The translations under genes and the position numbers were made by a program. The notes under the pieces were generated by a model. The model was not told the DNA's origin. It saw nothing but the letters and a program-made list of their open reading frames with translations, and searched no databases. From the NCBI GenBank assembly GCA_022800665.1, contig JAAWQS010000025.1, positions 1 through 36,325 of the forward strand: 36,325 nt of DNA, in the 5' to 3' direction. Below, one piece after another: positions 14,766 through 34,389 of this stretch (position 1 is the first letter of the stretch; each line of letters begins with the position of its first letter). Source of the DNA: Oscillospiraceae bacterium (lineage in GTDB: Bacteria > Bacillota > Clostridia > Oscillospirales > Oscillospiraceae).

Positions 14766-14832
14766 GCCGTCCGGCAGTCCCAGGCGCGTCAATCGGAAAA
14801 ATCTGCCGGCGGATGCCCTGCTGCCGGACGGC
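14766..14832 (+). terminator. Long-range inverted repeat after spoVT
   Basis: A perfect 12-bp stem (GCCGTCCGGCAG at 14766-14777 and its complement at 14821-14832) encloses 43 bases. There is no T-run after it, so termination is only possible, not shown. Confidence 0.4.
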
Positions 14833-14929
14833 CCGCTTTACAATTGACCCAGAATATGGTATGGTATCATCAGATGCGGCCTGCCGGAGCGGTCCGGGGG
14901 CCGTAAACTGAATGATGGAGGGAAGCGCT

Positions 14930-15853: not shown

Positions 15854-16024
15854 CTGAGGCGCAGCGTCCGGGCGGAAAGGCCTGGAGAGGCATGGGTTGG
15901 GGGGCGCATGGCTGCCGGCGGGGCCTGCGCAGGGACGAGAATGTTAACTTTTTGTAAAGCAGTGGAAATTTGCGGACAACCGTAGTATGATGGTCAACAC
16001 ACAATATTCGAGAGGGGAATACCC

Positions 16025-16792: not shown

Positions 16793-16830
16793 ACGCGCTT
16801 CTGCCATCTGCGGCAGTGTGGAACGGCGGA

Positions 16831-16875
16831 CCCGCCGGCAGGAAAAAACTGCCGGCGGGCCTACTGTTTTTGTGG
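16831..16875 (+). terminator. Rho-independent terminator after the EFR1 gene
   Basis: An 11-bp perfect GC stem (CCCGCCGGCAG at 16831-16841 with 16849-16859) with a 7-base loop, followed after a few bases by CTGTTTTTG. Confidence 0.8.
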
Positions 16876-16956
16876 AATCTGTTGGGAAATTGGATAAAAA
16901 GTCGTTGAATCCTTAACAGTTCTTTAACAAATTGGTCATAAACAACGGCGCGATTT

Positions 16957-16967
16957 TGTGCTATAAT
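16957..16967 (+). promoter_or_regulatory. Extended -10 promoter of the activase operon
   Basis: TGTGCTATAAT, identical to the DegV promoter core, 70 bases before the start codon. No good -35 with standard spacing (TTGGTC at 16932 is too far). Confidence 0.6.
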
Positions 16968-17036
16968 GCCAGATAAAAGCGCGGCGGCTTCTGTGGGCCG
17001 CCTGTATGTCTAATCGAATCGGAGTAGGATAACAGC

Positions 17037-19973: not shown

Positions 19974-19978
19974 GGAAG

Positions 19979-21322
19979 ATGACGGACAAAGAAAAAGGCT
20001 ATGTCGTCTTCACCAAAGAGATGAAGGAGACCCACACCATTCTGGTGCCTAATATGCTGCCCATGCACTTCAGGCTCATCGGCAAGGTCATGGAAAAGCA
20101 GGGCTACAAGGTGGAGCTGCTGGAGACCAGCGGACCGCAGATCGCGGAGACGGGGCTGAAGTATGTACATAACGACACCTGCTATCCGGCCATTCTGGTC
20201 ATCGGCCAGCTGCTCGACGCCCTGCAGAGCGGGAAGTACGACCCGGACCGGGTGGCGCTGATTCTGTTCCAGACCGGAGGCGGGTGCCGGGCGTCCAACT
20301 ATATCCATCTGCTGCGCAAGGCGTTGGAAAAAGCGGGACTGGGCCATGTGCCGGTTATCAGCCTGAGTTTGGCGGGGCTGGAGAAACACCCCGGCTTTCA
20401 GCTCAACCTGCCCATACTGCAGAAGATGATGTACGGCGTGCTGTACGGCGACCTGCTGATGAGCCTGGTCAACCAGTGCAAGCCCTACGAGCTGGAGCCG
20501 GGTTCCGCCCAGGCCCTGGCGGACAGCTGGACCGAACGCCTGGCCCGTGAGATGGCGGAACAGGGGGTGCGGTACAAGCAGGTCAAGGCCAATTACCGCC
20601 GGATCCTGGACGGCTTCGCCGGGATTCCCATGCAGAAATCCGAGAAGGTCATGGTGGGCGTGGTGGGAGAGATTTTCGTCAAATACTCCCCCCTGGGCAA
20701 CAATAATCTGGAGCAGTTTCTGGTGGATGAGGGCGCGGAGGTGGTGATTCCCGGACTGCTGGACTTCTGCCTGTACTGCGTCTACAACAATATCCTGGAC
20801 CACAAGCTCTACGGGATGCAGAAGAGCGCGCAGCTGGCCTATCGGATTGCCTGCCGGTTCCTGCTGAATAAGGAGCGGGATCTGATCGCGGCGATGGAAG
20901 CCCATGGCCGGTTTACCCCGCCTACCCTCTTTACCCGCACCATGGAGCTGGTACAGGGAACCATCAGCATGGGGGTCAAGATGGGGGAGGGCTGGCTGCT
21001 GACGGCGGAGATGCTGGAGCTGGCGGATAAAGGGGTCAGCAATATCGTCTGTACCCAGCCCTTCGGGTGCCTGCCCAACCATATCTGCGGCAAGGGTATG
21101 ATGAAGCCCATTAAGGCCAAGAATCCGGATATCAATATTGTAGCGATTGATTATGACGCCGGAGCTACCAGGGTCAATCAGGAGAACCGCCTGAAGCTGA
21201 TGCTGGCCAACGCCAAGCAGAAGCAGCAGTCCGCGCAGCGGGCCGCCGCCAGACCGGCGGTTAAGGAACCGGAAGTCCGGGAGACGGAAGTGCGTCAGAA
21301 GGCGATTCCAAGAGCGGTATAA
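19979..21322 (+). CDS. 2-hydroxyacyl-CoA dehydratase-like protein (COG3581)
   Basis: A 447-aa protein homologous to the C-terminal part of long activase-related proteins and distantly to HgdB-type dehydratase subunits. Cysteines that may ligate an iron-sulfur cluster are in DTCYPAILV, QTGGGCRASNYI, LDFCLYCVYNN and TQPFGCLPNHICGKGM. I prefer the ATG at 19979, 10 bases after GGAG, over the overlapping GTG at 19970. The tail (from about residue 400) is a low-complexity Lys/Gln/Ala/Glu stretch with repeated EVRE/EVRQ, not conserved. It is clearly co-transcribed with the tandem activase. No acyl-CoA pathway enzymes lie nearby, so the substrate is unknown. Confidence 0.85.
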   Translation: MTDKEKGYVVFTKEMKETHTILVPNMLPMHFRLIGKVMEKQGYKVELLETSGPQIAETGLKYVHNDTCYPAILVIGQLLDALQSGKYDPDRVALILFQTGGGCRASNYIHLLRKALEKAGLGHVPVISLSLAGLEKHPGFQLNLPILQKMMYGVLYGDLLMSLVNQCKPYELEPGSAQALADSWTERLAREMAEQGVRYKQVKANYRRILDGFAGIPMQKSEKVMVGVVGEIFVKYSPLGNNNLEQFLVDEGAEVVIPGLLDFCLYCVYNNILDHKLYGMQKSAQLAYRIACRFLLNKERDLIAAMEAHGRFTPPTLFTRTMELVQGTISMGVKMGEGWLLTAEMLELADKGVSNIVCTQPFGCLPNHICGKGMMKPIKAKNPDINIVAIDYDAGATRVNQENRLKLMLANAKQKQQSAQRAAARPAVKEPEVRETEVRQKAIPRAV

Positions 21323-21335
21323 TGGGGCGCATTAT

Positions 21336-21375
21336 GAGGGACTTGCTGTCAGAGCAGACGGCAGGTCCCTCTTTG
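21336..21375 (+). terminator. Terminator of the activase operon
   Basis: GAGGGACTTGC and GCAGGTCCCTC pair with one mismatch around a 17-base loop, followed by TTTGG. Confidence 0.6.
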
Positions 21376-21401
21376 GCCGGGATGCAGAGGTCCTGTCCGG
21401 A

Positions 21402-21491: not shown

Positions 21492-22205
21492 CTAATTTCT
21501 GGCTTTGCCGAGGTAAGCCTCCTTAATGGATTCATCGTTGAGCAGCTCCAGTCCGGCGCCGGACTTGGTAATCACGCCGGTCTCCAGAACATAGGCGTAG
21601 TCTGCGATTTTCAACGCCATATTTGCATTCTGCTCCACCAGCAGGATGGTCACGCCCTGCCGGTTGATCTCCTGGATGATGGTAAAGATATCCTGCACCA
21701 CCAGCGGGGCCAGGCCCAGGGAGGGTTCGTCCAGCATCATCATCTTGGGCCGGGACATCAGCCCGCGCCCTACGGCCAGCATCTGCTGTTCGCCGCCGGA
21801 GAGGGTCCCCGCCAGCTGCCAGTGCCGCTCTTCCAGCCGGGGAAACAGCTCATAGACCCATTTGACATCCTTCTCAATGCCGTCCTTGTCATTGCGCAGA
21901 TAGGCGCCGACCTTCAGATTTTCCAGCACCGTCAGGTTTGGAAAGACCCTGCGGCCCTCCGGAACCTGGGCGATCCCGGCCTCCAGAATCTTATTGCTGG
22001 GCAGGCCCAGCAGTTCCATACCGCCGTATGTAATGGAGCCGGACTGCGCTTTGACCAGGCTGGAAATGGTGCGCAGGGTGGTGGACTTGCCCGCGCCGTT
22101 GGCGCCGATCAGGGTGACGGTTTTGCCGTCCGGGACCTCCAGGCTGATGCCGGACAGAGCCTGGATGCCGCCGTAGGCCACCCGCAGGTTTTCGATTTTA
22201 AGCAT
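21492..22205 (-). CDS. livF: Branched-chain amino acid ABC transporter ATPase LivF
   Basis: A 237-aa ABC ATPase. Walker A GANGAGKSTT, signature LSGGEQQMLAVGRGL, Walker B MMMLDEPSLGL and the H-loop-like Q region (VEQNANMAL) are all present and in order. It is the smaller of the two ATPases of the HAAT importer family. I chose the ATG at 22205 (6 bases after GGGGGTGA) over an in-frame GTG at 22211; either overlaps the end of livG. Last gene of the five-gene operon. The substrate cannot be read from the ATPase. Confidence 0.93.
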   Translation of the reverse strand: MLKIENLRVAYGGIQALSGISLEVPDGKTVTLIGANGAGKSTTLRTISSLVKAQSGSITYGGMELLGLPSNKILEAGIAQVPEGRRVFPNLTVLENLKVGAYLRNDKDGIEKDVKWVYELFPRLEERHWQLAGTLSGGEQQMLAVGRGLMSRPKMMMLDEPSLGLAPLVVQDIFTIIQEINRQGVTILLVEQNANMALKIADYAYVLETGVITKSGAGLELLNDESIKEAYLGKARN

Positions 22206-23043
22206 CTTCACTCACCCCCAAGTATGCGTCAATGACGTGCTGGTTGCTCTGGATCTCCGCAGGCGTGCCGTGGGCGATGAGCTTGCCGAAGTCGAGGACA
22301 TAGATCCTGTCGGAAATATCCATGACAAGGTTCATATGGTGCTCAATGAGCAGAATCGTGGTGTGAAACTGTTCCCGAATCTCGCTGATGAATGTGGTCA
22401 GCTCATCGGTCTCCTGGGGATTCATACCGGCGGCTGGCTCGTCCAGCAGCAGCAGCGTGGGATCGGTAGCCAGAGCGCGGGCAATCTCCAGCCGCCTCTG
22501 CTTGCCATAGGGCAGGCTGGTGGACAGCTCCCCCTTTACATCGTCCAGACCGACCACCTTCAGCAGCTCCATGACCTCCTCCCGCTGCCGGGCCTCCTCC
22601 GCTCTGTTGAGACGGAATGCCGCTGTAAGCAGATTACTGGTCCTGCGCAGATGCTTCGCAATGAGGACGTTGTCAAATACCGTCTGGCTGGACCAGAGGC
22701 GGATGTTCTGGAAGGTGCGGGCCATGCCCCATCCGGTGATCTTGTCCGGCGTCGGCTCCAGAACGTGTCCCGTATATTTGTCCGGATCGCTGCCCTTGTA
22801 CAGCTTTTTCATCTTGCCCTGGGGATGGTTGCGGACAATGGCCCTGCCGTTGAAGGAGACCTGCCCGTTGGTGGGCGCGTAGACGCCGGTGATGACGTTG
22901 AACGCGGTGGTTTTCCCGGCGCCGTTGGGACCGATGAGGGCCACGATCTCCCCCTTGTTGATCTCCATACTGAGATTGTTGACAGCCACCACGCCGCCAA
23001 ACTGCATGGTTACGTTTTCAAGCCGAAGGACGTTCTCCCCCAT
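22198..23043 (-). CDS. livG: Branched-chain amino acid ABC transporter ATPase LivG
   Basis: A 281-aa ABC ATPase with Walker A GPNGAGKTT, signature region LPYGKQRRLEIARAL (a variant of LSGGQ, as is usual in LivG), Walker B LLLLDEPAAGM, and IEHHMNLVM with the switch His. An insertion after Walker A (about residues 70-110, Lys-rich) is longer than in E. coli LivG. The ATG at 23043 lies 10 bases from AGGAGG; a GTG at 23049 that overlaps the livM stop is the alternative. Part of the liv operon. Confidence 0.93.
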   Translation of the reverse strand: MGENVLRLENVTMQFGGVVAVNNLSMEINKGEIVALIGPNGAGKTTAFNVITGVYAPTNGQVSFNGRAIVRNHPQGKMKKLYKGSDPDKYTGHVLEPTPDKITGWGMARTFQNIRLWSSQTVFDNVLIAKHLRRTSNLLTAAFRLNRAEEARQREEVMELLKVVGLDDVKGELSTSLPYGKQRRLEIARALATDPTLLLLDEPAAGMNPQETDELTTFISEIREQFHTTILLIEHHMNLVMDISDRIYVLDFGKLIAHGTPAEIQSNQHVIDAYLGVSEDA

Positions 23044-23045
23044 AC

Positions 23046-24218
23046 TCACTCAGCCTCCTTTGCGGCAGGCGGTTTTCCGCCCAGCTTCTGTTTCAGCCGC
23101 CGGCCCGCCCCCTGTATGTTCAGTTCCCTCTCCCCCATGATTCCCTTGCGGAAAAACAGCACGATAATCATGATGGCAACGGAGAACACGACTTTCCGGA
23201 AGCCGGGGCGCATTATGTTCAGACCCGGAATGAAGTTGGAGGTCTCCATGTCCAAAAAGCGCAGCCACCACTCCGACGCGCCGATGAAAATAAAGGCGCT
23301 GATGCAGGAACCGGTGACGGAGCCGATGCCGCCAATGACGACAATCAGCAGAATTTCATACGTCATGGCCGTCTTAAAGGCCAGCGCCTGCACCGTAGTC
23401 TGGTACATAGCCAGCATTCCGCCGGCGATGCCGGCAAAAAATGCGCTGATGACAAAGGACAGCATCTTGTGGCGGGCCAGATTGATGCCCATGGCCTCCG
23501 CCGCAATCTCATCATCCCGGATGGCCTTAAAGGCCCGGCCATAGGTGGAGTTGATCACCAGGATAATCAACAGAATGCACAGCGCCGCGATGAGAACCGT
23601 CACTGTGGTGGACAGATTCACCGCCACCTTGCCGCCGCTGCGGATATTGAAGTTGTCAAAGTTGGTGAACTTGCGCAGAAGATTGGAGCCGTTGGTGAGC
23701 GGCCCCAGGCCGTCCCACTGGAAAACGGCGCGGATGATCTCGGCAAAGCCCAGGGTGGCAATGGCCAGATAGTCGCTGCGGAACCGGAGCGCCGGCAGGC
23801 CGATCAGCCAGGCGAACACAGCCGCCGCCAGACCGGCGGCGAGCAGTCCCAGCAGTACCCCAAGGATCAGTCCGGCCACGGGACCCAGCGCGGCGGTGAT
23901 GCCCTCCACCAGAGAGAACTGGATGATGCCGCCGTCAAAATACTGGTACACAGCCGCCCGGTCCGCCACGGCAATGTTCAGCATTCCATAGACGTAAGCG
24001 CCGATGAGCATAAAGCCCGCCTGTCCCAGGGAGAACAGCCCTGTGAAGCCGTTGAGCAGGTTCATGGACACGGCGGCCAGGGCGTAGATGGCGCTCTTTT
24101 TCAAGACGGTAAAGAGCATGGAGGAGCTGGGCAGCGCCTGTTCCAGCGTCAGGATTACCGCCAGCAGGGCAATGACAAAGATGATATTTGCCTTGCCGCT
24201 TGTTTTCTGTTGGAGCAT
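23046..24218 (-). CDS. livM: Branched-chain amino acid ABC transporter permease LivM
   Basis: A 390-aa permease with about nine hydrophobic segments. Family hallmarks are GLFSLGQAGFMLIGAY near the N-terminus, the YLAIATLGFAEIIR loop, and the cytoplasmic EAA-like motif GRAFKAIRDDEIAAEAMGIN that docks on LivG/F. A long hydrophobic insertion about residues 85-130 precedes the conserved core. The C-terminal 30 residues are basic and Gly/Pro-rich. Start supported by AAGGAGG 8 bases upstream. It is separated from livH by 12 bases. Confidence 0.93.
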   Translation of the reverse strand: MLQQKTSGKANIIFVIALLAVILTLEQALPSSSMLFTVLKKSAIYALAAVSMNLLNGFTGLFSLGQAGFMLIGAYVYGMLNIAVADRAAVYQYFDGGIIQFSLVEGITAALGPVAGLILGVLLGLLAAGLAAAVFAWLIGLPALRFRSDYLAIATLGFAEIIRAVFQWDGLGPLTNGSNLLRKFTNFDNFNIRSGGKVAVNLSTTVTVLIAALCILLIILVINSTYGRAFKAIRDDEIAAEAMGINLARHKMLSFVISAFFAGIAGGMLAMYQTTVQALAFKTAMTYEILLIVVIGGIGSVTGSCISAFIFIGASEWWLRFLDMETSNFIPGLNIMRPGFRKVVFSVAIMIIVLFFRKGIMGERELNIQGAGRRLKQKLGGKPPAAKEAE

Positions 24219-24230
24219 CTGTGCACCTCC

Positions 24231-25115
24231 TTAAACCTTGTCTGTGGTTTTCTCACCGAAGAGGCCGGTGGGCTTGAAGATCAGGATCACGATCAGCAGC
24301 GCAAAGGTAAACGCATCGGAGAAGGTCGTCAGGTGGAGCGCTTTGATGATGTTCTCGCAGATGCCGATGATGAACGCGCCGATGACAGCGCCGGGGACCG
24401 AGCCGATGCCGCCGAACACAGCGGCAATAAAAGCTTTGATGCCTGGAATTGCGCCCACGGTGGGCGTAACGCCGGTATAGTTGGAGAAGAACAGCAGGGA
24501 GCCTACCGCCGCCAGGAACGAGCCGATGATAAAGGTGACGGAGATCACGGAGTCAATCTGAATCCCCATCAGCAGCGATGTCTCGAAATCCTTGGATACG
24601 GCCCGCATTCCCATGCCCACCTTTGTGTGGTTGATGAGCAGGACCAGCAGTACAATCAGAACAATTGTCAGAACAGGGGTAATCACCGTCACCCGCTTGG
24701 TGGTAGCGCCCAGGACCACCACGGAGTCGCTCAGCCAGGGAATGGCGGGGTACTCCTTGGAAAGTCCGCCGGTCACATACAGGGCGATATTCTGCAGGAG
24801 ATAACTCACGCCGATGGCGGAGATCATAACGGACATGCGGGGAGCCGTGCGCAGCGGCTTATAAGCAATGCGCTCCACGGCGAAGCCCAGCGCAACTGTC
24901 AGCGCCAGGGTCAGTGGGATGGAAGCGTAGAAGGGCATGGAGGCGGACGCATAGACCATCATCAGCCCGGCCACCATGAAGATGTCGCCGTGGGCAAAGT
25001 TGATCAGGCGCAGAATGCCGTACACCATGCTGTAGCCGATGGCAATCAGCGCATACTGACCGCCTACCGAGATACCTGCCAGCAGATAGGGCAGGTTGTT
25101 GGATATCCATTGCAT
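24231..25115 (-). CDS. livH: Branched-chain amino acid ABC transporter permease LivH
   Basis: A 294-aa permease with about eight membrane segments. Hallmarks: GGQYALIAIGYSMVYGILRLINFAHGD at residues 15-40 (part of the family signature), GMGMRAVSKDFETSLLMGI (ATPase-docking loop) and GGIGSVPGAVIGAFIIGI in the C-terminal half. I start at the ATG at 25115, preceded by GGGAGGATT; the upstream in-frame ATG adds 13 unlikely residues. A GC-rich hairpin lies between it and livK. Confidence 0.93.
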   Translation of the reverse strand: MQWISNNLPYLLAGISVGGQYALIAIGYSMVYGILRLINFAHGDIFMVAGLMMVYASASMPFYASIPLTLALTVALGFAVERIAYKPLRTAPRMSVMISAIGVSYLLQNIALYVTGGLSKEYPAIPWLSDSVVVLGATTKRVTVITPVLTIVLIVLLVLLINHTKVGMGMRAVSKDFETSLLMGIQIDSVISVTFIIGSFLAAVGSLLFFSNYTGVTPTVGAIPGIKAFIAAVFGGIGSVPGAVIGAFIIGICENIIKALHLTTFSDAFTFALLIVILIFKPTGLFGEKTTDKV

Positions 25116-25169
25116 ATATGAATCCTCCCATGGCCGTTTGACCGGCTGGGCCAAACAGCAGGATAAATA

Positions 25170-25196
25170 CTGCGGCAGGGCGGCGCCCCGCCGCAG
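25170..25196 (-). terminator. Intercistronic hairpin between livK and livH
   Basis: CTGCGGC...GCCGCAG forms a long GC stem with a small loop and a mismatch, followed on the minus strand by TATTTATCC. It probably acts as a partial terminator or an mRNA-stabilising 3' end, giving more binding protein than permease, as is usual in such operons. Confidence 0.55.
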
Positions 25197-25201
25197 AGCT
25201 G

Positions 25202-26386
25202 TTATTTTACCTTGACCTCGCCGTACATCTCATACTCGCCGCTGGCGGTATTCAGGTGTTTGACAAAGGCGGCGTCGCGGATAGCATCGCCGTTCTCGTC
25301 AAAGGCAATGTGTCCGGTCGCGCCGTCGAAGCTGACGGAGGGCAGGGCGGCCATTACGCCGGCGGGGGCGGTGGAACCGGCGGCCTTCAAAGCCTCAAGA
25401 GCGGCATAGTAGGCGTCGTAGCCCAGGACGGAACAGGCCGCAATGGTGGTGTTGCCGCCATTGTTGGCCATTGCGGTGGCATTGTCCTCCATGTACTTGG
25501 TGAAGCCCGCGTCAAATGCAGGGTCGCCGCCCACCGCATAGAAGGTGGAGCAGTAGATATCCAGGTCCGTCCCCTTGCCTACGCCGGCCACCACGTTGGA
25601 GTCCAGGGTGTCGCCGCCCAGAACGGGCATTCCCAGACCCTGGGTGTTGGCCTGCTCCAGGAACAGCGCCAGGGCCTCCACGGAGATGGGGGCCAGGCAG
25701 ATGTCGCAGCCCTCGTTCTTGGCGGTGGTGATATAGGAAGTAAAGTCGGAGTTGCCCTCCTGGAAGCTCTCCACCACGCAGGAGCCGCCCAGACCCTCAA
25801 AGGCTTCCTTGAAGTAGTTGCCCACGCCCACGGAGTAGTCGTCGCCCAGCTTGGTCAGGATATATGCCTTTTTGGCGCTGTACTCATCCACAGCCAGATT
25901 CGCCAGCACGGTACCCTGGAAGGGGTCCAGGAAGCAGACGCGGAAATAGTGGTCGTTGCCCAGCGTCACCTGGGGATTGGTGCAGCTGACGCCAATAACG
26001 GGGATGCCGGCGTTGCCGAAGGTGTCGGACCCGGCAATGGACACGCCGGAGCCGTAGGACCCCAGGACCACGCTGACGCCGGCAGAGACCAGCTGCGAGG
26101 CGGCGGAGACGGCCTTGTCGTTGGAGCTCTCGTTGTCCACGATCACCAGCTCCACGTTGTATGTCTTGCCGCCGATGTCCACAGTGGGGGTGACATAGTT
26201 GGCGTACTGGGAACCCAGGGTCTCCTGTTTGCCGGGCGCGCCGTTGTCGCCGGACGCGGGCTGGAAGATACCGATTTTCACGGTGTCGCCAGAGGAACCG
26301 GAGGAACCGCTGCCGCCCGTGCTGCCGCAGGCGCACAGAGCCAGTACACACACAGCCATTACCAGAGCAATCATCCTTCTTTTCAT
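25202..26386 (-). CDS. livK: Branched-chain amino acid-type ABC transporter substrate-binding lipoprotein
   Basis: A 394-aa type I periplasmic-binding-fold protein. It has a lipoprotein signal (MKRRMIALVMAVCVLALCAC), with a lipobox ending LCA-C at Cys 20 and a Gly/Ser-rich linker after it, so it is anchored outside the membrane. The receptor family ligand-binding domain follows (VKIGIFQPASGDNGAPGKQ, NESSNDKAVSAASQLVSAGV, GSYGSGVSIAGSDTF, IPVIGVSCTNPQVT). Gly/Ser positions in the first lobe fit an alpha-amino/carboxylate ligand, but which amino acid cannot be told. It is the first and probably most expressed gene of the operon (livK-H-M-G-F). AAGGAGG precedes the ATG. Confidence 0.92.
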   Translation of the reverse strand: MKRRMIALVMAVCVLALCACGSTGGSGSSGSSGDTVKIGIFQPASGDNGAPGKQETLGSQYANYVTPTVDIGGKTYNVELVIVDNESSNDKAVSAASQLVSAGVSVVLGSYGSGVSIAGSDTFGNAGIPVIGVSCTNPQVTLGNDHYFRVCFLDPFQGTVLANLAVDEYSAKKAYILTKLGDDYSVGVGNYFKEAFEGLGGSCVVESFQEGNSDFTSYITTAKNEGCDICLAPISVEALALFLEQANTQGLGMPVLGGDTLDSNVVAGVGKGTDLDIYCSTFYAVGGDPAFDAGFTKYMEDNATAMANNGGNTTIAACSVLGYDAYYAALEALKAAGSTAPAGVMAALPSVSFDGATGHIAFDENGDAIRDAAFVKHLNTASGEYEMYGEVKVK

Positions 26387-26597
26387 TTCTTTACCTCCTT
26401 CAGTTGTTTAGGCCGGCCATTTCTTTCGGCAACTTTGCCAGAAAAGACCGTCGAATTACGCTCCAAATTTATCACAGTTCCACAGCGTTGTCTACCGGCT
26501 CTTTTCCTGCCCTTGGAAAGAAGGATTTGTGGAAACCGGCAAAAACATCCGCAGTACAAAAACAATGCTGCAACCAGTTGTTTTTGCACTGCGGAAA

Positions 26598-26627
26598 ATT
26601 ATAGCTGTTATTGTAAAATAGTACCAA
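26598..26627 (-). promoter_or_regulatory. Probable promoter of the liv operon
   Basis: On the minus strand, TTGGTA (26622-26627), an 18-base spacer and a perfect TATAAT (26598-26603). It lies about 210 bases before livK, leaving a long leader. The rest of 26387-26715 (329 bases) is AT-richer than its surroundings and shows no gene. Confidence 0.5.
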
Positions 26628-26715
26628 TTCCCCTGAAACGCATAATCATCGAATACGAGAAAAAATGCGCAATATCGGATGATAAATCTGACGCCTCCGC
26701 ACCGCCGGGACGCGG

Positions 26716-27423
26716 TTAATCCGGCTGCTTCCTGCCCCGCATCATATAGCTTTTGGGCGTCATGCCGGTGCGCTTTTTGAAGCGGGTATAAAAATTGTTG
26801 AGATTGGGATAGCCGATCATCTCCGAAATCTCCTTGATGCTCTTGCTGCTGTTCTTCATCAGCTCCTTTGCCTTCTCGATCCGCCGCCAGTGGATGCACT
26901 CCACGCAGGACATCCCCATGTGCTTTTTGAACAGGTGGGAGAGGTGGTAGGCGCTGATATAGAATTTCTGGGAGATGCTCTCCAGGGTCAGATTTTCCCC
27001 CAGGTGTCCGTCAATATAGAGCAAAATCTCGTTGACCTGCCAGTTGGAGGAGAACTCCAGCCCTACGGCCCGGTTGATGGACTCAATGAGATTTTCACCG
27101 CTGATGGGCTTGAGCAGCAGGTCGCTGGCTCCCAGGCGCAGGGCAGTCTGGGCATACTCAAAAATGCTGTAGGCGGTCACAATGATGAATTTGGCCCGGC
27201 TCTGTTCCGCCCTGGCCTGTTCAATGACCTCCAGTCCTGTCAGGACCGGCATCTGGATGTCCATGAAAACCAGATCCGGGTCGTATTGCCGGATGGCCTC
27301 CAGCGCGGCCTGGCCGTCGCCCACCTCTGCGGCGATGGATATGGGGAGCTGTTCCTCCTTCAAAAAATACCGGATGAGCTTGCCCACAGCGGGCTCGTCG
27401 TCCGCAATCACTGCATACAGCAT
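26716..27423 (-). CDS. Response regulator with AraC-type DNA-binding domain (YesN-like)
   Basis: A 235-aa two-component regulator. Receiver domain: D8/D9, phosphoacceptor D55 (VFMDIQMP), T83 and K105 (LLLKPISG). A short linker leads to an AraC/XylS domain (about 130-230) with both helix-turn-helix units; the second ends in the classic IGYPNLNNFYTRFKKRTGM with the family's PKSYM. It is transcribed away from the cupin kinase gene through a 133-base shared promoter region and points toward the liv operon 330 bases downstream. The likely cognate kinase is that divergent neighbour. Its ribosome site AGGAGGAACGAACT is strong. Confidence 0.92.
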   Translation of the reverse strand: MLYAVIADDEPAVGKLIRYFLKEEQLPISIAAEVGDGQAALEAIRQYDPDLVFMDIQMPVLTGLEVIEQARAEQSRAKFIIVTAYSIFEYAQTALRLGASDLLLKPISGENLIESINRAVGLEFSSNWQVNEILLYIDGHLGENLTLESISQKFYISAYHLSHLFKKHMGMSCVECIHWRRIEKAKELMKNSSKSIKEISEMIGYPNLNNFYTRFKKRTGMTPKSYMMRGRKQPD

Positions 27424-27447
27424 AGTTCGTTCCTCCTCCTGTTTTCC

Positions 27448-27463
27448 GCCGGTTTTTACCCGG
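27448..27463. promoter_or_regulatory. Operator candidate A in the divergent regulator/kinase region
   Basis: GCCGGTTTTTACCCGG is an imperfect palindrome. A near copy in inverted orientation (GCCGGTAAAACCGGC) is at 27530-27544. The two flank the divergent promoters. Confidence 0.45.
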
Positions 27464-27491
27464 TTGCATTTTTTAGCGGATATGATATCAT
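27464..27491 (+). promoter_or_regulatory. Promoter of the cupin histidine kinase
   Basis: TTGCAT (27464-27469), a 16-base spacer and TATCAT (27486-27491) with TGn before it. The -10 lies in the perfect palindrome ATGATATCAT (27482-27491), which may also serve the opposite strand (with TTAACA at 27503-27508), so the divergent promoters may overlap. Confidence 0.45.
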
Positions 27492-27529
27492 GAAAAACAA
27501 ATTGTTAAAATACAGCAGACGCATACAAA

Positions 27530-27544
27530 GCCGGTAAAACCGGC
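27530..27544. promoter_or_regulatory. Operator candidate B in the divergent regulator/kinase region
   Basis: GCCGG-TAAAA-CCGGC is a perfect 5-5-5 inverted repeat immediately before the kinase ribosome-binding site. It is similar in sequence to site A, so either a protein site or a small leader hairpin. Confidence 0.45.
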
Positions 27545-27556
27545 AGGGAGGCAATT

Positions 27557-28999
27557 ATGGGAAAAGACCGGCAAATGAACTCCTGGGGCTACATCGACTG
27601 GATTCAGCGGGAGCCGTCCGGCGGCGGATTCCCCGCCAGCATCGGGTTCGTCAACCTGCTGCCCGGCAAGCGGCAGGCCGAGCACACCCACCACTCGGAG
27701 GCCCAGTTCCTCTACACCATCACCGGCTATGGGGAGCACATTATCAACGGCAAGCGATACCAGTTCGGCCCCGGCGACCACTTCCTGATGGACAGCGGCG
27801 TGGTACACGCCACCATCAACCGGGGGGAGGAGGTCATGCAGGAGCTGATTGTCTCCATCCCCATCCACCTGTGCCGGGATGTGGCGCCGGTCCAGGACGG
27901 CTCCTCCTTTGACCCGGACTTCGCCCAGGCCGCGCTCCTGGACGGCATCGGCCAGCTCGCCCGCGACACCCTGGACCATGTCAACATGCCGGTGGTCCTG
28001 GCCGGCGGCAGTCAGGACATCATCTACTGCAAGGGTCTGCCGCCCCTGTGCCGGCGATGTGAGGAACCGGCCTGTCCTCTGCGCCGCAGTGTCCACGAGC
28101 TGCACAGCGACCACTGCGCCGCCTGCAGCTCTGTGGTCTGCCCCCGCGGGCTGACGGTGCTGGTGCAGCCGGTGATGCTGGACAACCGGGCCTGCGGCTT
28201 CATCAAGGGCGGACTTTTCCGGCAGTACCCCAATATCCCCGCGGCGGGGGAGGTCTACGATGTGCCGGACTCAACGGTCAACGCCGCCCGCTTTTTCCTC
28301 CAGGATATCAGCAGCTACCTCGCCGCCTTTTACCAGGAGCGCAAACGGCAGCGGCCTCCGCTTCCCGGCCTGCCCGCAGGGGAGGCCGCCGGCATTGTGG
28401 AGCAGCTGCGGACCCACACCCTGAACATACAGATCCGCAACCACCTGCTTTTCAACACCCTGAACTCCATTGCTTCCCTGGCCGTCCGGGACGGCTCCAT
28501 GGACACCTACCGGGCGATCATCGACCTGGCCGAGCTGCTCCGGGGCCTGCTGCGCCGGGAAGGCGCCCGCGTGCCGCTGAGCGAGGAAATTGCCTTTCTG
28601 CAGCGGTATATCAATCTCCAGACCCTCCGCTTTGAGGACGGCCTCCAAGTAACCTGGCGGCGCTGTGCCGCGGCGGAGCGGACCTTCGTCCCCCACAACT
28701 TCCTCCAGCCCATAGTGGAAAACGCCCTGCTCCACGGCTACAACGGCCACGACCGGCGGGAGCTTCTGATTGAAACGGCGCTGGAGGAGGGGCGGAGCGT
28801 GGTACGGGTCCAGGACAACGGCTGCGGCATGGACGCCCAGACGCTGGAGCGTCTGCGAAGCTCCCTGTATTCCGGCGCGGCCCACGGCCTGTCCATGGTC
28901 AACCGCAAGCTGGCCGGCGTCTTCGGCCAGGACTTCCATTTCGACATTGCCAGCCGCCCCGGAGAGGGGACCTGCTGCCGCCTGAGCTTCCCCATTTAA
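27557..28999 (+). CDS. Soluble histidine kinase with cupin and Cys-rich PocR-like sensor domains
   Basis: A 480-aa kinase with no membrane segment or signal, so it senses something in the cytoplasm. Residues 25-105 form a cupin barrel with putative metal ligands H43, H45/H46 and H84 (HTHHSEAQFLYTI, GPGDHFLM, GVVHATI). Residues 125-225 resemble a PocR sensory domain, with C158, C165, C168, C173, C187, C190 and C195, then GLTVLVQPVMLDNRACGFIKGG. The kinase core is of the LytS/YehU type: H296 in RNHLLFNTLNSI (normally NPHFLFN; the Pro is replaced), the N-box IVENALLHG and the G-box DNGCGM. The Cys set could bind a metal or iron-sulfur cluster; cupin plus PocR on a kinase is unusual. It is divergent from the AraC-type response regulator, its probable partner. 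Confidence 0.88.
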   Translation: MGKDRQMNSWGYIDWIQREPSGGGFPASIGFVNLLPGKRQAEHTHHSEAQFLYTITGYGEHIINGKRYQFGPGDHFLMDSGVVHATINRGEEVMQELIVSIPIHLCRDVAPVQDGSSFDPDFAQAALLDGIGQLARDTLDHVNMPVVLAGGSQDIIYCKGLPPLCRRCEEPACPLRRSVHELHSDHCAACSSVVCPRGLTVLVQPVMLDNRACGFIKGGLFRQYPNIPAAGEVYDVPDSTVNAARFFLQDISSYLAAFYQERKRQRPPLPGLPAGEAAGIVEQLRTHTLNIQIRNHLLFNTLNSIASLAVRDGSMDTYRAIIDLAELLRGLLRREGARVPLSEEIAFLQRYINLQTLRFEDGLQVTWRRCAAAERTFVPHNFLQPIVENALLHGYNGHDRRELLIETALEEGRSVVRVQDNGCGMDAQTLERLRSSLYSGAAHGLSMVNRKLAGVFGQDFHFDIASRPGEGTCCRLSFPI

Positions 29000-29074
29000 C
29001 GGCCCGCCTCCGTGCCGGAGTGTGTGCGATTGCAGAAAACCCGTATAAAAAGCGCAAGATCCTGAATAGAAATC

Positions 29075-29089
29075 CCACAGAAAATGTGG
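29075..29089. promoter_or_regulatory. Inverted repeat upstream of the SHMT-like gene
   Basis: CCACA-GAAAA-TGTGG is a perfect 5-5-5 palindrome next to a GATAAT -10-like box, about 65 bases before the start codon. Candidate operator. Confidence 0.35.
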
Positions 29090-29152
29090 ATAATTAAGAT
29101 ATGCGCTGCTTATGTGCTCTGCACACACACAAAATACGGAGGTAACTGGCTT

Positions 29153-30427
29153 ATGAAAGCTACGAAAAAAAATGATCCTGAGCTGTATGGCATTGTCAGG
29201 GAGGAGTACGTCCGCCAGAGATACAACATTGAAATGATCGCTTCCGAGAGCACGGCCCCCATCGAGTGCCTGGAGCTGGCAGGCTGCGTGTTCAACAACA
29301 AGACCACCGAGGGCTATCCCGGCAAGCGGTTCCAGGCCGGTTCCCAGATTGCCGACAAGATGGAGCTGCTGGCGATGGAACGCGGCAAATCCCTCTATGG
29401 CGCGGACCATATCAACGTCCAGCCCTACTCCGGCTCTTCCGCCAACTACGGCGTCTACTCCGCCATGATGCGCCTGGGCCTGATGGAGCCGGGCGACACC
29501 ATCCTCAGCATGAGCCTGGACGACGGCGGCCATCTGACCCACGGCAGTCCCGCCAACTTCATGTCCAAGTTCTTCCGCTTTGAGCACTACGCCCTCAACC
29601 GGGAGTCGGAGCAGATCGACTACGAGGGGCTGGCTGCGAAGGCGAAGGCAGTGCAGCCGAAGCTGATTATCGCCGGCGGCAGCGCCTATCCCCAGCTGAT
29701 CGACTATGAGCGCATCGGCGCGATTGCCAAGGAGACCGGCGCGAAATACATGGTGGATATGGCCCACATCTCCGGCCTTGTGGCGGCGAAGGTGATTCCC
29801 TCCCCGGTCCCCTATGCGGACTTTGTGACGTCCTCCATGGCGAAGACCCTCTGCGGCCCCCGCGGCGGCTTTGTCCTGTGCAAAGGGGAGTATGCCAAGA
29901 AGCTGGATGCCGGTGTGTTCCCCGGTTCTGTCAGCTCCATCCACCTCCAGACCATGGCCGCGAAAGCGTATACCTTCCGGTATGCCGCCAGCGGGGAGTT
30001 CCATGAGATCATGTCCCGCGTTGTAACCAACGCCAAGTATCTGGCCAAGTCCCTCACCGAGAAGGGGTTCCGGGTCGTCTCTGGCGGCACGGAGAACCAC
30101 ATCGTCCTGCTGGACCTGCGCCCCAAGGGAATCTCCGGCAAGGCGTTCCAGGATGCGCTGGAGTATGTGGGCATTACGGTGAACAAGAACATGATTCCCG
30201 GCGACACCGCCTCCCCCAACGTCACCAGCGGCGTGCGCATCGGTCTGACCTCCACTGCCCAGCGGGGTTTCCATACGCCTGATATTGAGGTCATTGCCCA
30301 GATCATGGACAAAGTTGCCAGTCACAGCGATGACCAGGCCGTGCTGGATGCCTGCAAGCAGGAGGCACGGTCGCTGATTGAGAAGTTCCCCCTCTACGAT
30401 GCGGCGTACAACGATTATTTTGAATAA
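29153..30427 (+). CDS. Serine hydroxymethyltransferase-family PLP enzyme with altered active site
   Basis: A 424-aa fold-type I PLP enzyme clearly of the SHMT family (IEMIASES, TEGYPGKRF, NVQPYSGSSAN, DDGGHLTHG, VDMAHISGL, GPRGGFVL, SGVRIGLTSTAQRGF). However several residues fixed in true SHMT differ: the Tyr before AEG is Thr (KTTEGYPG), RYYGG is RFQAG, and the His before the Schiff-base Lys (THK) is Ala in SSMAKTLCGPRGG. The Lys and the Arg that binds the substrate carboxylate remain. In E. coli SHMT the two Tyr and the His shape serine and PLP chemistry, so I expect a related reaction on another beta-hydroxy or alpha-methyl amino acid, not the housekeeping SHMT. The ATG at 29153 lies 10 bases after GGAGG. 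It follows the cupin kinase by 150 bases, same strand. There is no riboswitch upstream. Confidence 0.85.
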   Translation: MKATKKNDPELYGIVREEYVRQRYNIEMIASESTAPIECLELAGCVFNNKTTEGYPGKRFQAGSQIADKMELLAMERGKSLYGADHINVQPYSGSSANYGVYSAMMRLGLMEPGDTILSMSLDDGGHLTHGSPANFMSKFFRFEHYALNRESEQIDYEGLAAKAKAVQPKLIIAGGSAYPQLIDYERIGAIAKETGAKYMVDMAHISGLVAAKVIPSPVPYADFVTSSMAKTLCGPRGGFVLCKGEYAKKLDAGVFPGSVSSIHLQTMAAKAYTFRYAASGEFHEIMSRVVTNAKYLAKSLTEKGFRVVSGGTENHIVLLDLRPKGISGKAFQDALEYVGITVNKNMIPGDTASPNVTSGVRIGLTSTAQRGFHTPDIEVIAQIMDKVASHSDDQAVLDACKQEARSLIEKFPLYDAAYNDYFE

Positions 30428-30477: not shown

Positions 30478-30531
30478 GATGCCCCGGTCTGCCGCCTTCT
30501 GCCGGCTGCGGATCGGGGCATCGCCTTTTTT
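30478..30531 (+). terminator. Terminator after the SHMT-like gene
   Basis: A 9-bp perfect stem GATGCCCCG (30478-30486) with 30514-30522, a 27-base inner region that can form its own GCCG/CGGC pairing, then CCTTTTTT. Confidence 0.75.
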
Positions 30532-31394
30532 CAGGGGGATGCCTCCGGAATCGCGGTGAAATACCTCACCAGGTACCGCATGAACCGCTCCAACGCCGGG
30601 TGCGGCTGCCGGGCCGGATTTGCCCGCATATAGACATTGCGGTAAATCTGGGGCTGGCGGAAGGGCAGGAAGGTCAGGCTGTCGCTGGAGTAGACCCGCC
30701 AGGTCTGGACCGGCCAGAAGGTAATGCCCAGCCCCCGCTGCACCAGCATCCGGACCAGGAAGGGACTGTCGCACTCGAAATCCACCTCCAGCTTAAATCC
30801 GGAGGCGGTACACAGCCGCTCGATCTGCTCCCGCAGCAGCTGGTCTTCGGTGGGCATCACAATCGGCTCTCGTCCCAGCAGCTCCAGTTCGGCCTCCTTG
30901 TGGAGGCTGAGGGGGGAGGAGACCGGGATTGCCAGCATGATCTCCTCCCGTGTCAGAAACACGGTCCCCATATCGGCAACCTCGTCCGGAGAGGAGAAGA
31001 TGGTGAGATCCGTCTCCTCGCTGCCGGCGGACTGCAAAAGATGGAAACGGGTCTGGGGTTCAATCTGCCGGAACCGGGCCAGAATATCAGGGAGCAGCGC
31101 GGAGGCCGAGAGGACGCGGAGCCGGACCGCATTCTCCTTTTCAGAGGAAAAGGTCTCCGGCAGGGCGTCCACCGCCGAGAGAATCGGCGCAACCTTGGCG
31201 GCAAACAGCCTGCCGTTGGAGCTGAGGCGGATGTGCTTGCCGTTGCGGATAAACAGGTCCGTCTGCAGCTCCGCCTCCAGCCCGGTGATCGCCTTGCTCA
31301 CAGACGATTGGGCGACCATCAGGCGGCGGGATGCCTCGGAGATGTTTTCGCATTTAGCAGCGTAGGAGAAGTAGCGCAGCTGATAAAGTTCCAT
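30531..31394 (-). CDS. LysR-type transcriptional regulator
   Basis: A 287-aa LTTR. Residues 1-60 are the winged HTH (MELYQLRYFSYAAKCENISEAS, VAQSSVSKAITGLEAEL). The effector domain follows as two alpha/beta subdomains (about 88-285). It is divergent from the M20 peptidase-YfcC-AEC operon, the classic arrangement for an LTTR that controls its neighbour; the co-inducer is unknown. The ATG at 31394 is preceded by AAGGAGG. The next 322 bases, up to the peptidase, hold both promoters. Confidence 0.92.
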   Translation of the reverse strand: MELYQLRYFSYAAKCENISEASRRLMVAQSSVSKAITGLEAELQTDLFIRNGKHIRLSSNGRLFAAKVAPILSAVDALPETFSSEKENAVRLRVLSASALLPDILARFRQIEPQTRFHLLQSAGSEETDLTIFSSPDEVADMGTVFLTREEIMLAIPVSSPLSLHKEAELELLGREPIVMPTEDQLLREQIERLCTASGFKLEVDFECDSPFLVRMLVQRGLGITFWPVQTWRVYSSDSLTFLPFRQPQIYRNVYMRANPARQPHPALERFMRYLVRYFTAIPEASP

Positions 31395-31555
31395 AGTTCG
31401 GCCTCCTTGCAAATGAGTATTGGTCCAACGTATCCGGAATTTCATCTATATCAAAAGGGGTAAGCCGGACAACGCCGCCGCACCCGGAGAGGGTCCGTAT
31501 TGTACGGTTTCCCTGCTGAACAATCCTGCTCCCGCCGCATCTCCATTATTTCATT

Positions 31556-31566
31556 ATTATAGCACA
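31556..31566 (-). promoter_or_regulatory. Extended -10 promoter of the LysR gene
   Basis: On the minus strand, TGTGCTATAAT, the same core as at 370 and 16957. There is no clear -35. Confidence 0.5.
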
Positions 31567-31618
31567 TTTTTGCTGTAATGGTAGGCGATTATCCGTTTTT
31601 TTATTATTCATAATTGCT

Positions 31619-31628
31619 ATAACGTTAT
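31619..31628. promoter_or_regulatory. Palindrome between the LysR gene and the peptidase gene
   Basis: ATAACGTTAT is a perfect 10-base palindrome 37 bases upstream of the peptidase -10 and next to the LysR promoter. A candidate LysR operator. The rest of the 322-base intergenic region is AT-rich without a gene. Confidence 0.4.
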
Positions 31629-31661
31629 CAAAAACCGCGAGATACGCCCGCCGGAAATCCA

Positions 31662-31670
31662 TGGTATACT
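31662..31670 (+). promoter_or_regulatory. Promoter of the M20 peptidase operon
   Basis: TATACT (31665-31670) with the extension TGG. There is no good -35, as expected for an activator-dependent promoter. Confidence 0.5.
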
Positions 31671-31716
31671 GTGAGTATCTCCCAAAAAAAGTGTCAAAGA
31701 AAGGAGCGTTTGAGGG

Positions 31717-32910
31717 GTGAATATACAAAAGCAACAGCTGCCGTCCGCATCGGCTTATGTCGAAAACCGAAAGGAGGAAATTCTGAGCCTTCTGCGGGAA
31801 TTTGTGGAGCTGCCCAGCTGCAGCCGGGAGCCGGAGGTCATGCCGGCGGCAGTGGAATGGGTCTGCCGCCTGCTGAGAAACGAGGGGTACCGGGTCCGCA
31901 CCTGGGAGGTGGGCTGCGGCAATTCGCCTGTGATTGTCGCCGACCTGGAGGGACAGGAGGAGGGCCGGCCCGTAATCTTTTCCGGGCACTATGACACGGC
32001 GCTCTACCGGGACCTGTCCGGGCAAAACCCGTTCCGGGTGCAGGACGGCATGGTCTTCGGTACCGGCGTGCTGGATATGAAGGGCGGCATTGTCGTTGCC
32101 CTGTATGCCGTCCGTGCAGCGGTCCAGGCTGGCCTGCGGCGTCCGGTGCGCCTGCTGCTGGCGGGGGACGAGGAGATCAACCATGCGGGCTCCAGGGCCG
32201 CCGGGATTCTCATGGAGGAGGCGGCAGGCGGACTCTGCGCCTTCAATATGGAGACGGGCCTGCGCAGCAACGCGCTGGCGGTTTTCCGAAAGGGCGGTAC
32301 CCGTTGCCGCATCACTGTGACCGGCGTGGAGGCCCACGCGGGGAACGATTTCACCAAGGGCCGCAGCGCCATTGTGGAGATGGCCCGCAAAATAGTGGAG
32401 ATCCACAACCTGACGGACCTCTCCGCAGGTACCACTATGAACATCGGCACCATCCAGGGCGGGACGATCTTCAACGCGGTTCCGGCCAGGTGTGAGATTG
32501 TGGTGGATATGCGGTTTGAGAAAAACGAGGAGATGGAAAAAGCAAAGGAGAATCTGGCGGCGGTCTGCCGGAAGACGTACATCGAGGGGACACAGACCGA
32601 GATGGAGTATATCGACGTCATGCACGTCTTTGAGACCACGGAGGACGGTTTGGCGCTGTGGGACTTCCTGCGGGAAACTGCGGAGGAGGCGGGGCTGCAG
32701 CCGCTGGAGCAGGCCCGTCTGGGCGGCAGCTCTGACGCGGCCTATCTGACCATGGCCGGCGTCCCCACCGTCTGCTCCTGCGGCACAATGGGGGAGTGGA
32801 ACCACACCGTGCGGGAGTACGCCCTGGCAGACTCGCTCTATGAGCGTGCCAAGCTCTTTGCAAACGCGCTTTTGCGCATGGACCGTTTTGAACACAGAAA
32901 TACCCGCTGA
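31717..32910 (+). CDS. M20 family metallopeptidase (carboxypeptidase G2-like)
   Basis: A 397-aa dizinc hydrolase. Metal ligands and base: H91 and D93 (GHYDT), bridging D120 (GVLDMKGG), general base E152 and ligand E153 (AGDEEIN), E179 (NMETG) and H363 (EWNHTVREY). The dimerisation domain is inserted at about residues 190-300 (VTGVEAHAGNDFTKGRSAI). No signal peptide, so it acts in the cytoplasm on an imported amide or dipeptide. The start is GTG, 10 bases after AAGGAG. It is the first gene of an operon with a YfcC transporter (41-base gap) and an AEC transporter. Relatives include glutamate carboxypeptidase and acetylornithine deacetylase; the substrate is not certain. Confidence 0.9.
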   Translation: MNIQKQQLPSASAYVENRKEEILSLLREFVELPSCSREPEVMPAAVEWVCRLLRNEGYRVRTWEVGCGNSPVIVADLEGQEEGRPVIFSGHYDTALYRDLSGQNPFRVQDGMVFGTGVLDMKGGIVVALYAVRAAVQAGLRRPVRLLLAGDEEINHAGSRAAGILMEEAAGGLCAFNMETGLRSNALAVFRKGGTRCRITVTGVEAHAGNDFTKGRSAIVEMARKIVEIHNLTDLSAGTTMNIGTIQGGTIFNAVPARCEIVVDMRFEKNEEMEKAKENLAAVCRKTYIEGTQTEMEYIDVMHVFETTEDGLALWDFLRETAEEAGLQPLEQARLGGSSDAAYLTMAGVPTVCSCGTMGEWNHTVREYALADSLYERAKLFANALLRMDRFEHRNTR

Positions 32911-32951
32911 ATCCGAAATAGCGGCCAGCTACAAAAGAGGAGGAAGAAAAC

Positions 32952-34361
32952 GTGAAAGACCAGAATACGGCGGCAAAAACAAACCGCTCCTTCAAAATGC
33001 CCCACGCATATGTCATTATCGTACTGCTGCTGGCAGTTGTCTCCCTGCTGACCTACTTTATTCCCGCGGGCTCCTACGCCCGCTATGAGGACGAGGCGGG
33101 CCGCAGCGTAGTGGACCCCGGCGCCTTTGCCTATTCGGGGGAATCCAATCCGGTATCCATTCTCCAGATTCCCTCCATGATCGTCAAGGCTATTGAGAAG
33201 AACGCCTCCCTGATCTTTTCCATCATCATTATTGCGGGAGCGCTGGAGATTATACTCTCCACCGGCATGTTCCACGCCTTTTGCAACAAGCTGTCTCGAG
33301 CCTGTGCCAAGAGCGGGAAGGAAATTCTGTTTATTCCCGCCATTACGCTGATCTTTACCCTGATTGGCCTGACCCAGTCCACGGACAAATTTATCGCCTT
33401 CGGCCCTATCGGCGTCATGCTGGCCGTCACCCTGGGCTATGACGCCATTGTGGGGATTGCCATTGTCCTGCTGGGCGTCGGCGTTGGCTTCAGCGTGGGC
33501 GCGCTCCATACCACCACCGCCGTGGCCCAGCAGATTTCCGGTCTGGACCTCTACTCCGGCATCGGGGTGCGGGTTGTTGTCACCATCATTTTCTATTTGA
33601 TTACAACCCTCTACATCTGCCAATACGCCAAGCGGATCAAGGACGACCCCGCCAAGAGCTACCTGCACAATGTGGAAGGCGTGATGGATTTTGACCCCGC
33701 TGAGACGGAAATTGCTATCAACTGGCGTCATTTCCTGGTGCTGGGCATCTTTGCCGCCGGGCTGGGCGTATTGATGTGGGGCTGCCTGAAAAAAGGCTGG
33801 TCCTTCCAGGAGACCTCCATTCTGTTTCTGTGGGTGGGCATCCTCAGCGGTCTGGTCTACGGCATCGGGCCTTCACAGATGTGCAAAACCTTCATCAAGG
33901 GCTGCGGCGGCGCAACCGGCTCGGCGTTGGTGGTGGGCTTCGGCGCGGCGGTCTCCCTGGTACTCAACGAGGCGGGCGTCATTGATACCGTCGTGATGGG
34001 GCTGGCCCAGATGCTCAATGCTGTACCCGGCGCCCTGCGGGGCACGGCTATGTTCGCGGCCAATATCATTATTAACTTCTTCATTCCCTCCGGCAACGGC
34101 CAAGCGGCTGTGGTTATGCCCATTATGGCCCCGCTGTCCGACGTCATCGGCGTTTCCCGGCAGACTGCGGTAATGGCGTTCAAGCTGGGCGACGGTCTGT
34201 GCAACTACGTCCTGCCCCACGCCGCCGCGCTGATGGGCTTCCTGGGCGTCACCGGCGTCCCCTACGACAAGTGGATGAAGTTTATGCTGAAGCTGTTTGC
34301 CATCTGGTTTGCCGCGGGCTGCGTTGTCTGCGCCGTCTGCCAGATCATCGGCTATGTGTGA
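32952..34361 (+). CDS. YfcC family transporter (DcuC/AbgT-like superfamily)
   Basis: A 469-aa integral membrane protein with about 12 hydrophobic segments. It opens with a cytoplasmic basic tail, then MPHAYVIIVLLLAVVSLLTYFIPAGSYARYE, the typical YfcC start. Other hallmarks are the Gly/Ala-rich GIAIVLLGVGVGFSVGALH and the FFIPSGNGQAAVVMPIMAPLSD near the C-terminus. YfcC proteins sit with amino-acid and peptide catabolism genes (often arginine deiminase) and are thought to import amino acids, peptides or dicarboxylates. Here the M20 peptidase in the same operon makes an amino-acid amide or dipeptide the likely cargo. Start GTG, with GGAGGAAG 8 bases upstream. Confidence 0.88.
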   Translation: MKDQNTAAKTNRSFKMPHAYVIIVLLLAVVSLLTYFIPAGSYARYEDEAGRSVVDPGAFAYSGESNPVSILQIPSMIVKAIEKNASLIFSIIIIAGALEIILSTGMFHAFCNKLSRACAKSGKEILFIPAITLIFTLIGLTQSTDKFIAFGPIGVMLAVTLGYDAIVGIAIVLLGVGVGFSVGALHTTTAVAQQISGLDLYSGIGVRVVVTIIFYLITTLYICQYAKRIKDDPAKSYLHNVEGVMDFDPAETEIAINWRHFLVLGIFAAGLGVLMWGCLKKGWSFQETSILFLWVGILSGLVYGIGPSQMCKTFIKGCGGATGSALVVGFGAAVSLVLNEAGVIDTVVMGLAQMLNAVPGALRGTAMFAANIIINFFIPSGNGQAAVVMPIMAPLSDVIGVSRQTAVMAFKLGDGLCNYVLPHAAALMGFLGVTGVPYDKWMKFMLKLFAIWFAAGCVVCAVCQIIGYV

Positions 34362-34389
34362 TCCGGCGGTTCATTGCTGATAAAACGAT

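Follow-up and report, generated by a model that had tools for sequence, protein, structure and literature searches.

The locus described here spans positions 21492-30427 of a 36,325-base stretch of DNA (the window), which is an entire contig (C106) of the 194-contig, 3.33-Mb genome of an Oscillospiraceae bacterium (completeness 95.4%, contamination 0.18%). It contains the genes of a liv-type ATP-binding cassette (ABC) importer, an AraC-type response regulator, a histidine kinase with a cupin domain and a paralog of serine hydroxymethyltransferase (SHMT), and these identities, proposed in a first-pass annotation of the DNA, were confirmed by Pfam. Matches to SpoVT, rubrerythrin and CoA-activase elsewhere in the window suggest that the host belongs to the Clostridia and is anaerobic and spore-forming. 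The importer genes form a single run on the minus strand that encodes a livF-type ATPase (21492-22211; ABC_tran), a livG-type ATPase (22198-23049; ABC_tran and BCA_ABC_TP_C), a livM-type permease (23046-24218; BPD_transp_2), a livH-type permease (24231-25154; BPD_transp_2) and a substrate-binding protein (25202-26386; Peripla_BP_6). The latter is probably a lipoprotein, having a hydrophobic start and the sequence LCAC, which on visual inspection looks like a lipobox. With two ATPases, two permeases and one binding protein the importer is complete, and LivF, LivM and LivH were the top NCBIfam models for the respective products, each under its cut-off. The nearest readable liv operons were found in two other genera of the family, with LivH identities of 75% and 68%.

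The regulator (26716-27423, minus strand, 235 residues) consists of a receiver domain and an AraC-type helix-turn-helix. Between its gene and liv is an inverted repeat of 18 nucleotides (26548-26595; 94% complementary, 12-nucleotide spacer) that may be the terminator of the regulator gene or an operator, and near it are two minus-strand promoter-like sites (26627-26598 and 26494-26466) that are consensus matches only. The kinase (27557-28999, plus strand) has Cupin_2, His_kinase and HATPase_c domains and, as revealed by alignment, a cysteine-rich PocR-like region that the first-pass annotation does not mention. Its proposed cytoplasmic location is upheld by hydropathy, as no membrane-spanning stretch was found (best 19-residue mean 1.34). 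In a nine-row alignment of the window kinase and eight homologs, cupin residues H43, H45, H84 and N88, the phospho-accepting H296, and cysteines C165, C173 and C195 are all invariant, the cysteines aligning with the PocR part of the homologs. The region in the window kinase is shortened, the stretch after the three aligned cysteines being absent, and its Pfam PocR match (E 0.12) is below the cut-off.

When 393 other genomes sampled from the order were searched with the sensory half of the kinase, 32 gave matches, which were short, weak and at cupin level only, and in 98 other relatives whole-kinase matches began at residue 281 or later. All 52 loci found by scanning genome contigs with the kinase matched from residue 238 onward only, and none of 46 plasmid records reached 80% coverage. 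Long homologs of the cupin kinase were identified at nine loci (L163-L171) among 397 other genomes of the phylum; a tenth fetched locus (L172, from G496) had no kinase match at E 1e-4 and was excluded. The cupin, PocR and His_kinase domains were confirmed by Pfam in all three of the homolog loci scanned, and a regulator-matching protein is encoded beside the kinase at eight of the nine. In the 5.7-20 kb read, liv operons and SHMT matches were absent from all nine of these loci (two, L165 and L168, are short contigs), and at L164 the further neighbors of the kinase gene were identified by Pfam as IlvD/EDD and TRAP transporter genes. Kinases of this cupin-PocR type (e.g., L165:2609-4234) have varied neighbor genes and are possible intracellular small-molecule sensors.

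The SHMT paralog (29153-30427, plus strand; Pfam SHMT, 415 bits) begins at an ATG that is preceded by GGAGGT, and its alignment to Bst SHMT (chain 1kkj, whose numbering is used throughout) opens at the second residue. The start given in the first-pass annotation, 29084, was 23 codons too far upstream. The description of the enzyme as a non-standard SHMT was well founded. At positions 33, 51, 60, 61, 62, 225, 257 and 259 it has S, T, F, Q, A, A, S and H in place of the canonical N, Y, Y, Y, G, H, G and L, and Tyr51, Tyr60, Tyr61 and His225 are present in the complete canonical rows shown. Residues E53, L117, G121, H122, L123, D197, H200, K226, N341 and R357 are retained. Two determinants of donor specificity, Tyr55 and Tyr65 of SHMT, are given as Thr60 and His70 in alpha-methylserine hydroxymethyltransferase (mSHMT; PMC6411801), and the Y55T variant of Streptococcus thermophilus SHMT is described as having more acceptance of D-Ser (PMC4761611). 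S. thermophilus Tyr55 corresponds to Bst Tyr51 (chain 6ti1, where residue 55 is Ser), such that the Thr at Bst 51 is a mark of mSHMT present in the window enzyme. For the Thermus enzyme, Tyr51 is described as holding the phosphate of pyridoxal phosphate (PLP) and Tyr61 as contacting the substrate (PMC10397204).

The described mSHMT with which we compared the window enzyme is that of the TRIS-degrading Pseudomonas hunanensis Teo1, encoded on plasmid p1_Teo1 (locus L186), where mSHMT (glyA2) and D-serine dehydratase are stated to "plausibly" convert 2-hydroxymethylserine (PMC10848231). Four mSHMT-type rows were used, Teo1, Ensifer, Shinella and Ruegeria, the latter three so called by residues and tree rather than by assay, and all four have T51, F60, H61, T225, S257 and H259. 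A set of 118 columns was defined by at least 97% conservation in 54 canonical SHMTs (the 54 exclude L179, L224 and L226). All four mSHMT-type rows are altered at 12 of these columns, and both the window enzyme and its nearest relative found, from Acetoanaerobium noterae, at 21. Ten of the 12 columns are altered in both groups (hypergeometric p 2e-7, neighboring columns being non-independent); all six rows agree exactly at five of the ten (T51, F60, S114, S257 and H259), and when any row per group counts, eight have a residue in common. At the folate site the window enzyme also resembles Teo1 mSHMT, with E53, L117, G121, L123 and N341 retained and Phe at 60. Position 351 is variable, being Asn in the window enzyme and in some canonical rows, and Ser or Pro in the mSHMT rows.

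Trees were built from 30 and 27 rows chosen by hand from 66; the set omitted a fusion protein on contig C190 (see below), two fragments (L181 and L182) and a duplicate (L184, of L044). When 14 signature columns were removed, mSHMT grouped with alphaproteobacterial SHMT (support 99), and forcing the nine variant rows together was rejected (30 rows, p-AU 0.0099). With 17 columns removed, the long-branched E53V rows omitted and a careful search, the six rows likewise did not form one clade (27 rows, p-AU 0.0163). A quick tree from all columns unites mSHMT with the window clade (SH-aLRT 97), which speaks for a common origin and leaves some room for one. Because the signature-free trees reject a single clade, however, independent origin is the simplest reading, and much the same active site has probably arisen twice in SHMT.

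The A. noterae enzyme (NZ_CP154629.1, a 2.6-Mb record filed as a plasmid) has 61% identity to that of the window. Its gene is about 7 kb from a gcvT/gcvP cluster, and leucine-type biosynthesis genes, read from translations, lie upstream. A sister clade of three enzymes, from contig C22 of the source genome and from genomes G045 and G299, shares T51 and carries V53 and P117, with I or K at 341, and the five enzymes form a single branch (support 100). Among 398 genomes of the phylum no further member of the window clade was evident, as the best 11 matches after the two of the source genome (L209-L219) were all canonical; in the other SHMT search, G299, L189, L190 and L193 were read residue by residue. 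The SHMT matches above 200 bits in the 24 other genomes of the genus were six canonical enzymes and one in two fragments. Contig C190 of the source genome encodes an 882-residue GcvT-SHMT fusion by Pfam (L147:5180-7828), followed by a GcvP-type gene, and an SHMT match in a frame of 880 residues or more occurs in 18 of 25 genus genomes, the source included, with the fusion itself Pfam-checked in the source genome only. Because of the recurrence of this long-frame match, we consider it unlikely that the window enzyme is the housekeeping SHMT. A 914-residue frame at L180 was rejected as a fusion, having an SHMT match only at residues 514-885 and a 463-residue frame on the opposite strand overlapping its first part.

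The second Tyr51Thr SHMT of the source genome, which was not part of the first-pass annotation, also lies at a liv locus. On contig C22 (L146:210-9512) a single strand encodes, in order, a ROK regulator, a liv binding protein, the E53V SHMT, LivH, LivM, LivG, LivF, Dak1 and Dak2, the last near the contig end. There are three liv-type (Peripla_BP_6) binding proteins in the genome, that of the window included, and no SHMT match was found in 16 kb at the third locus, on contig C94. Hence a Tyr51Thr SHMT is present at two of the three liv loci, and both such enzymes are liv-linked, one inside the operon. By our own arithmetic the chance of two independent placements beside liv is about 1e-4 (taking three stretches, each of about 11 kb, of the 3,326 kb as near). 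That the two operons are recent copies of one another was rejected based on identities of 33% for the binding proteins, 64% for LivF and 52% for SHMT.

Based on the gene content, the residue pattern, the separation of the window enzyme from proteobacterial mSHMT in signature-free trees and the second liv-linked Tyr51Thr SHMT, we tentatively propose, at somewhat less than even confidence, that the locus enables the bacterium to import an alpha,alpha-disubstituted beta-hydroxy amino acid via liv and to cleave its hydroxymethyl group with the SHMT paralog. The leading candidates for the substrate would be alpha-methylserine, which was among those listed in the first-pass annotation and whose type is favored by the residue pattern, or 2-hydroxymethylserine. 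Under this proposal the liv-type importer would take up the alpha,alpha-disubstituted serine, and the paralog would pass the hydroxymethyl group to tetrahydrofolate (THF), producing a D-amino acid (D-alanine or D-serine) and methylene-THF. The cupin/PocR-like kinase might sense the substrate or product in the cytoplasm, whereupon the AraC-type regulator might turn on liv and the SHMT gene. The substrate, the use of folate and the carriage of that substrate by liv are thus all presumptive, and we describe the enzyme as mSHMT-like rather than file it as an mSHMT.

Several observations weigh against this proposal. At position 61 (SHMT Tyr65) the enzymes of the window and of A. noterae have lost Tyr and carry Gln instead of the mSHMT His, and position 225 of the window enzyme is Ala versus the mSHMT Thr. 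Tyr60 and Phe351, linked to folate binding in the title of a cited paper, are replaced by Phe and Asn, though mSHMT too has Phe60 and some canonical rows have Asn351. Linkage to liv was seen for two of the five members of the wider clade and not for A. noterae, G299 or G045 (a 7.3-kb contig); no liv, regulator or kinase match was found in 25 kb at the A. noterae locus, and no SHMT, regulator or kinase match in 20 and 17.7 kb at the two closest readable liv operons. An amino-acid ABC importer does not adjoin the mSHMT-type genes of Ruegeria or Teo1. A scan of 30 window frames identified no FolD, PurU or D-serine dehydratase, no search for them having been made elsewhere in the genome. Comparison of the upstream regions of the locus produced no convincing common regulator site, and it is adjacency, in one genome, that suggests control of liv and SHMT by the kinase pair. 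Lastly, there may be a misassembly or misjoin near or right of 21.2 kb.

The first-pass annotation had gone further and treated the five parts as a possible module for sensing, import and degradation. The pairing of import with degradation gains from the two liv-linked SHMTs among three liv binding proteins; a conserved five-part module does not emerge. Kinase homologs, the nearest SHMT and the nearest liv operons each occurred separately from the rest of the set, which was seen complete only in the source genome among those sampled. Such separate occurrence, named in advance as telling against the module, largely holds, but eight of the nine distant kinases keep their regulator match. We conclude that the module is unproven and probably a local assembly. 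A search of a literature collection yielded no account of the gene set, in keeping with the earlier statement that none is described, and among the papers listed there was none on a clostridial mSHMT.

A realistic possibility, and one compatible with import and cleavage of the same amino acid, is that the kinase and regulator control a single neighbor, either the importer or the SHMT paralog. The gene for SHMT comes next after that for the kinase, in the same orientation, the regulator gene and liv are both on the opposite strand with the inverted repeat and promoter-like sites between them, and the distant kinases that keep a regulator match can have other genes nearby, as at L164; against this, no operator is known. 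No known riboswitch was found at liv or SHMT, the sole Rfam match in the window being a thiamine pyrophosphate riboswitch elsewhere (10332-10438, plus strand, 63 bits), upstream of a gene (10978-12090) that matches phosphomethylpyrimidine kinase.

We think it rather doubtful that the neighbors are unrelated, that is, an ordinary amino-acid importer, a two-component pair for something else and an SHMT paralog gathered in a variable region. The edges of the locus do lend this some weight. Window positions 10900-21400, which include the SpoVT and CoA-activase genes, are about 80% identical to congeners over stretches of 4-5 kb; because of these matches we assign contig C106 to the genus and rejected the notion that it is a binning error. 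At eight congener loci the similarity in DNA breaks off at 21214-21244, directly ahead of liv, and the rest of the window was unmatched in the 935-15,000 bases fetched (L249 and L255 extend barely past the break). The separate occurrence of relatives of the kinase, liv and SHMT elsewhere also fits with chance assembly. On the other side stands the placement of both Tyr51Thr SHMTs beside liv, which at about 1 in 10,000 would be improbable if independent.

Unlikely, in our estimation, is that the paralog acts as an aldolase without need of folate, or as some other PLP enzyme, on a larger beta-hydroxy amino acid (threonine, phenylserine or sugar-derived) imported by liv: Tyr60, Tyr61 and His225 are altered, SHMTs are reported to cleave several beta-hydroxy amino acids without folate (PMC3697235), the SHMT-annotated AibC is described as a decarboxylase that has no transferase activity (PMC7782822), and the sister clade in the same genome is without E53 and N341, but the window enzyme retains E53, L117, G121, L123 and N341 and has the residue pattern of Teo1 mSHMT, a THF-using enzyme according to its authors (PMC10848231). 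Accounts of E53 differ: it is described as required for folate-dependent serine cleavage and not for folate-free cleavage of allo-threonine (PMC5958214), while in the view of another group it takes part in both (PMC10397204).

The C22 enzyme, lacking E53 and N341, raises a more elaborate and highly doubtful scenario in which the lineage has two routes for alpha-substituted serines in parallel, each coupled to an importer, with a convergent folate-dependent mSHMT-like enzyme at the window, a folate-free sister at C22, and the kinase as an intracellular sensor for such amino acids. The C22 enzyme, in a manner that brings AibC to mind, would convert 2-hydroxymethylserine to dihydroxyacetone by decarboxylation-transamination without folate, and the Dak1/Dak2 kinase would phosphorylate the dihydroxyacetone for entry into glycolysis. 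This chemistry is our own and was proposed because Dak1 and Dak2 stand in the C22 gene run.

The right boundary of the locus is a LysR regulator gene (30531-31445, minus strand) that is outside the set and divergent from M20 peptidase and DcuC genes. Directly after the SHMT gene, positions 30531-35304 encode LysR, M20 peptidase, DcuC/YfcC-type and Mem_trans-type transporter proteins by Pfam, which have the appearance of a separate uptake cluster. Further to the left (6352-10048, minus strand), an HSP70-family protein of 572 residues adjoins a 360-residue frame unmatched in Pfam and a protein that weakly matches radical SAM.

The point of interest of the locus is the enzyme, the five-part set having been seen in one genome only. 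If the same active-site changes arose twice, donor specificity could be read from sequence and some genes annotated as glyA might be re-assigned. The comparison also points to the possible use of alpha,alpha-disubstituted amino acids by bacteria that are distant from the described users (Pseudomonas, Shinella and Rhodococcus). For either question the locus offers one importer, one enzyme and one sensor as test objects.

Each part of the locus has a recognizable counterpart from which it departs. The window operon has all five subunits of the LivFGHMK branched-chain importer, but every one falls under the LivF/G/H/M/K NCBIfam cut-offs. The kinase has in common with the eight aligned cupin-PocR-His_kinase sensors the cupin histidines, the cysteines and the phospho-accepting histidine, and with eight of nine an adjacent regulator; it differs in its identity of 23-27% to them, in its shortened PocR part, in its other neighbors and in a regulator of 235 residues versus about 500 in seven of the eight. 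With canonical SHMT (GlyA) the window enzyme shares Lys226, Asp197, His122, Arg357 and Glu53, and it differs at the 21 conserved columns that are altered in A. noterae as well. The A. noterae homolog is the closest in residues, having T51, F60, Q61, A62, S257 and H259, with Thr at 225 where the window enzyme has Ala. The Ensifer and Shinella clusters, two of the four mSHMT-type loci, have an amino-acid ABC importer, folD, purU and a D-serine ammonia-lyase gene nearby; the window differs in that its importer is liv-type and in having no folD, purU or dsdA among the frames scanned, and the proteobacterial enzymes differ in grouping, in the signature-free trees, with alphaproteobacterial SHMT rather than with that of the window. 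Teo1 mSHMT is only 44% identical to the window enzyme, which has Gln for His at 61 and Ala for Thr at 225, yet within the SHMT family the two have in common Y51T, Y60F, the replacement of Tyr61 and His225, G257S, L259H and the retention of E53 and N341.

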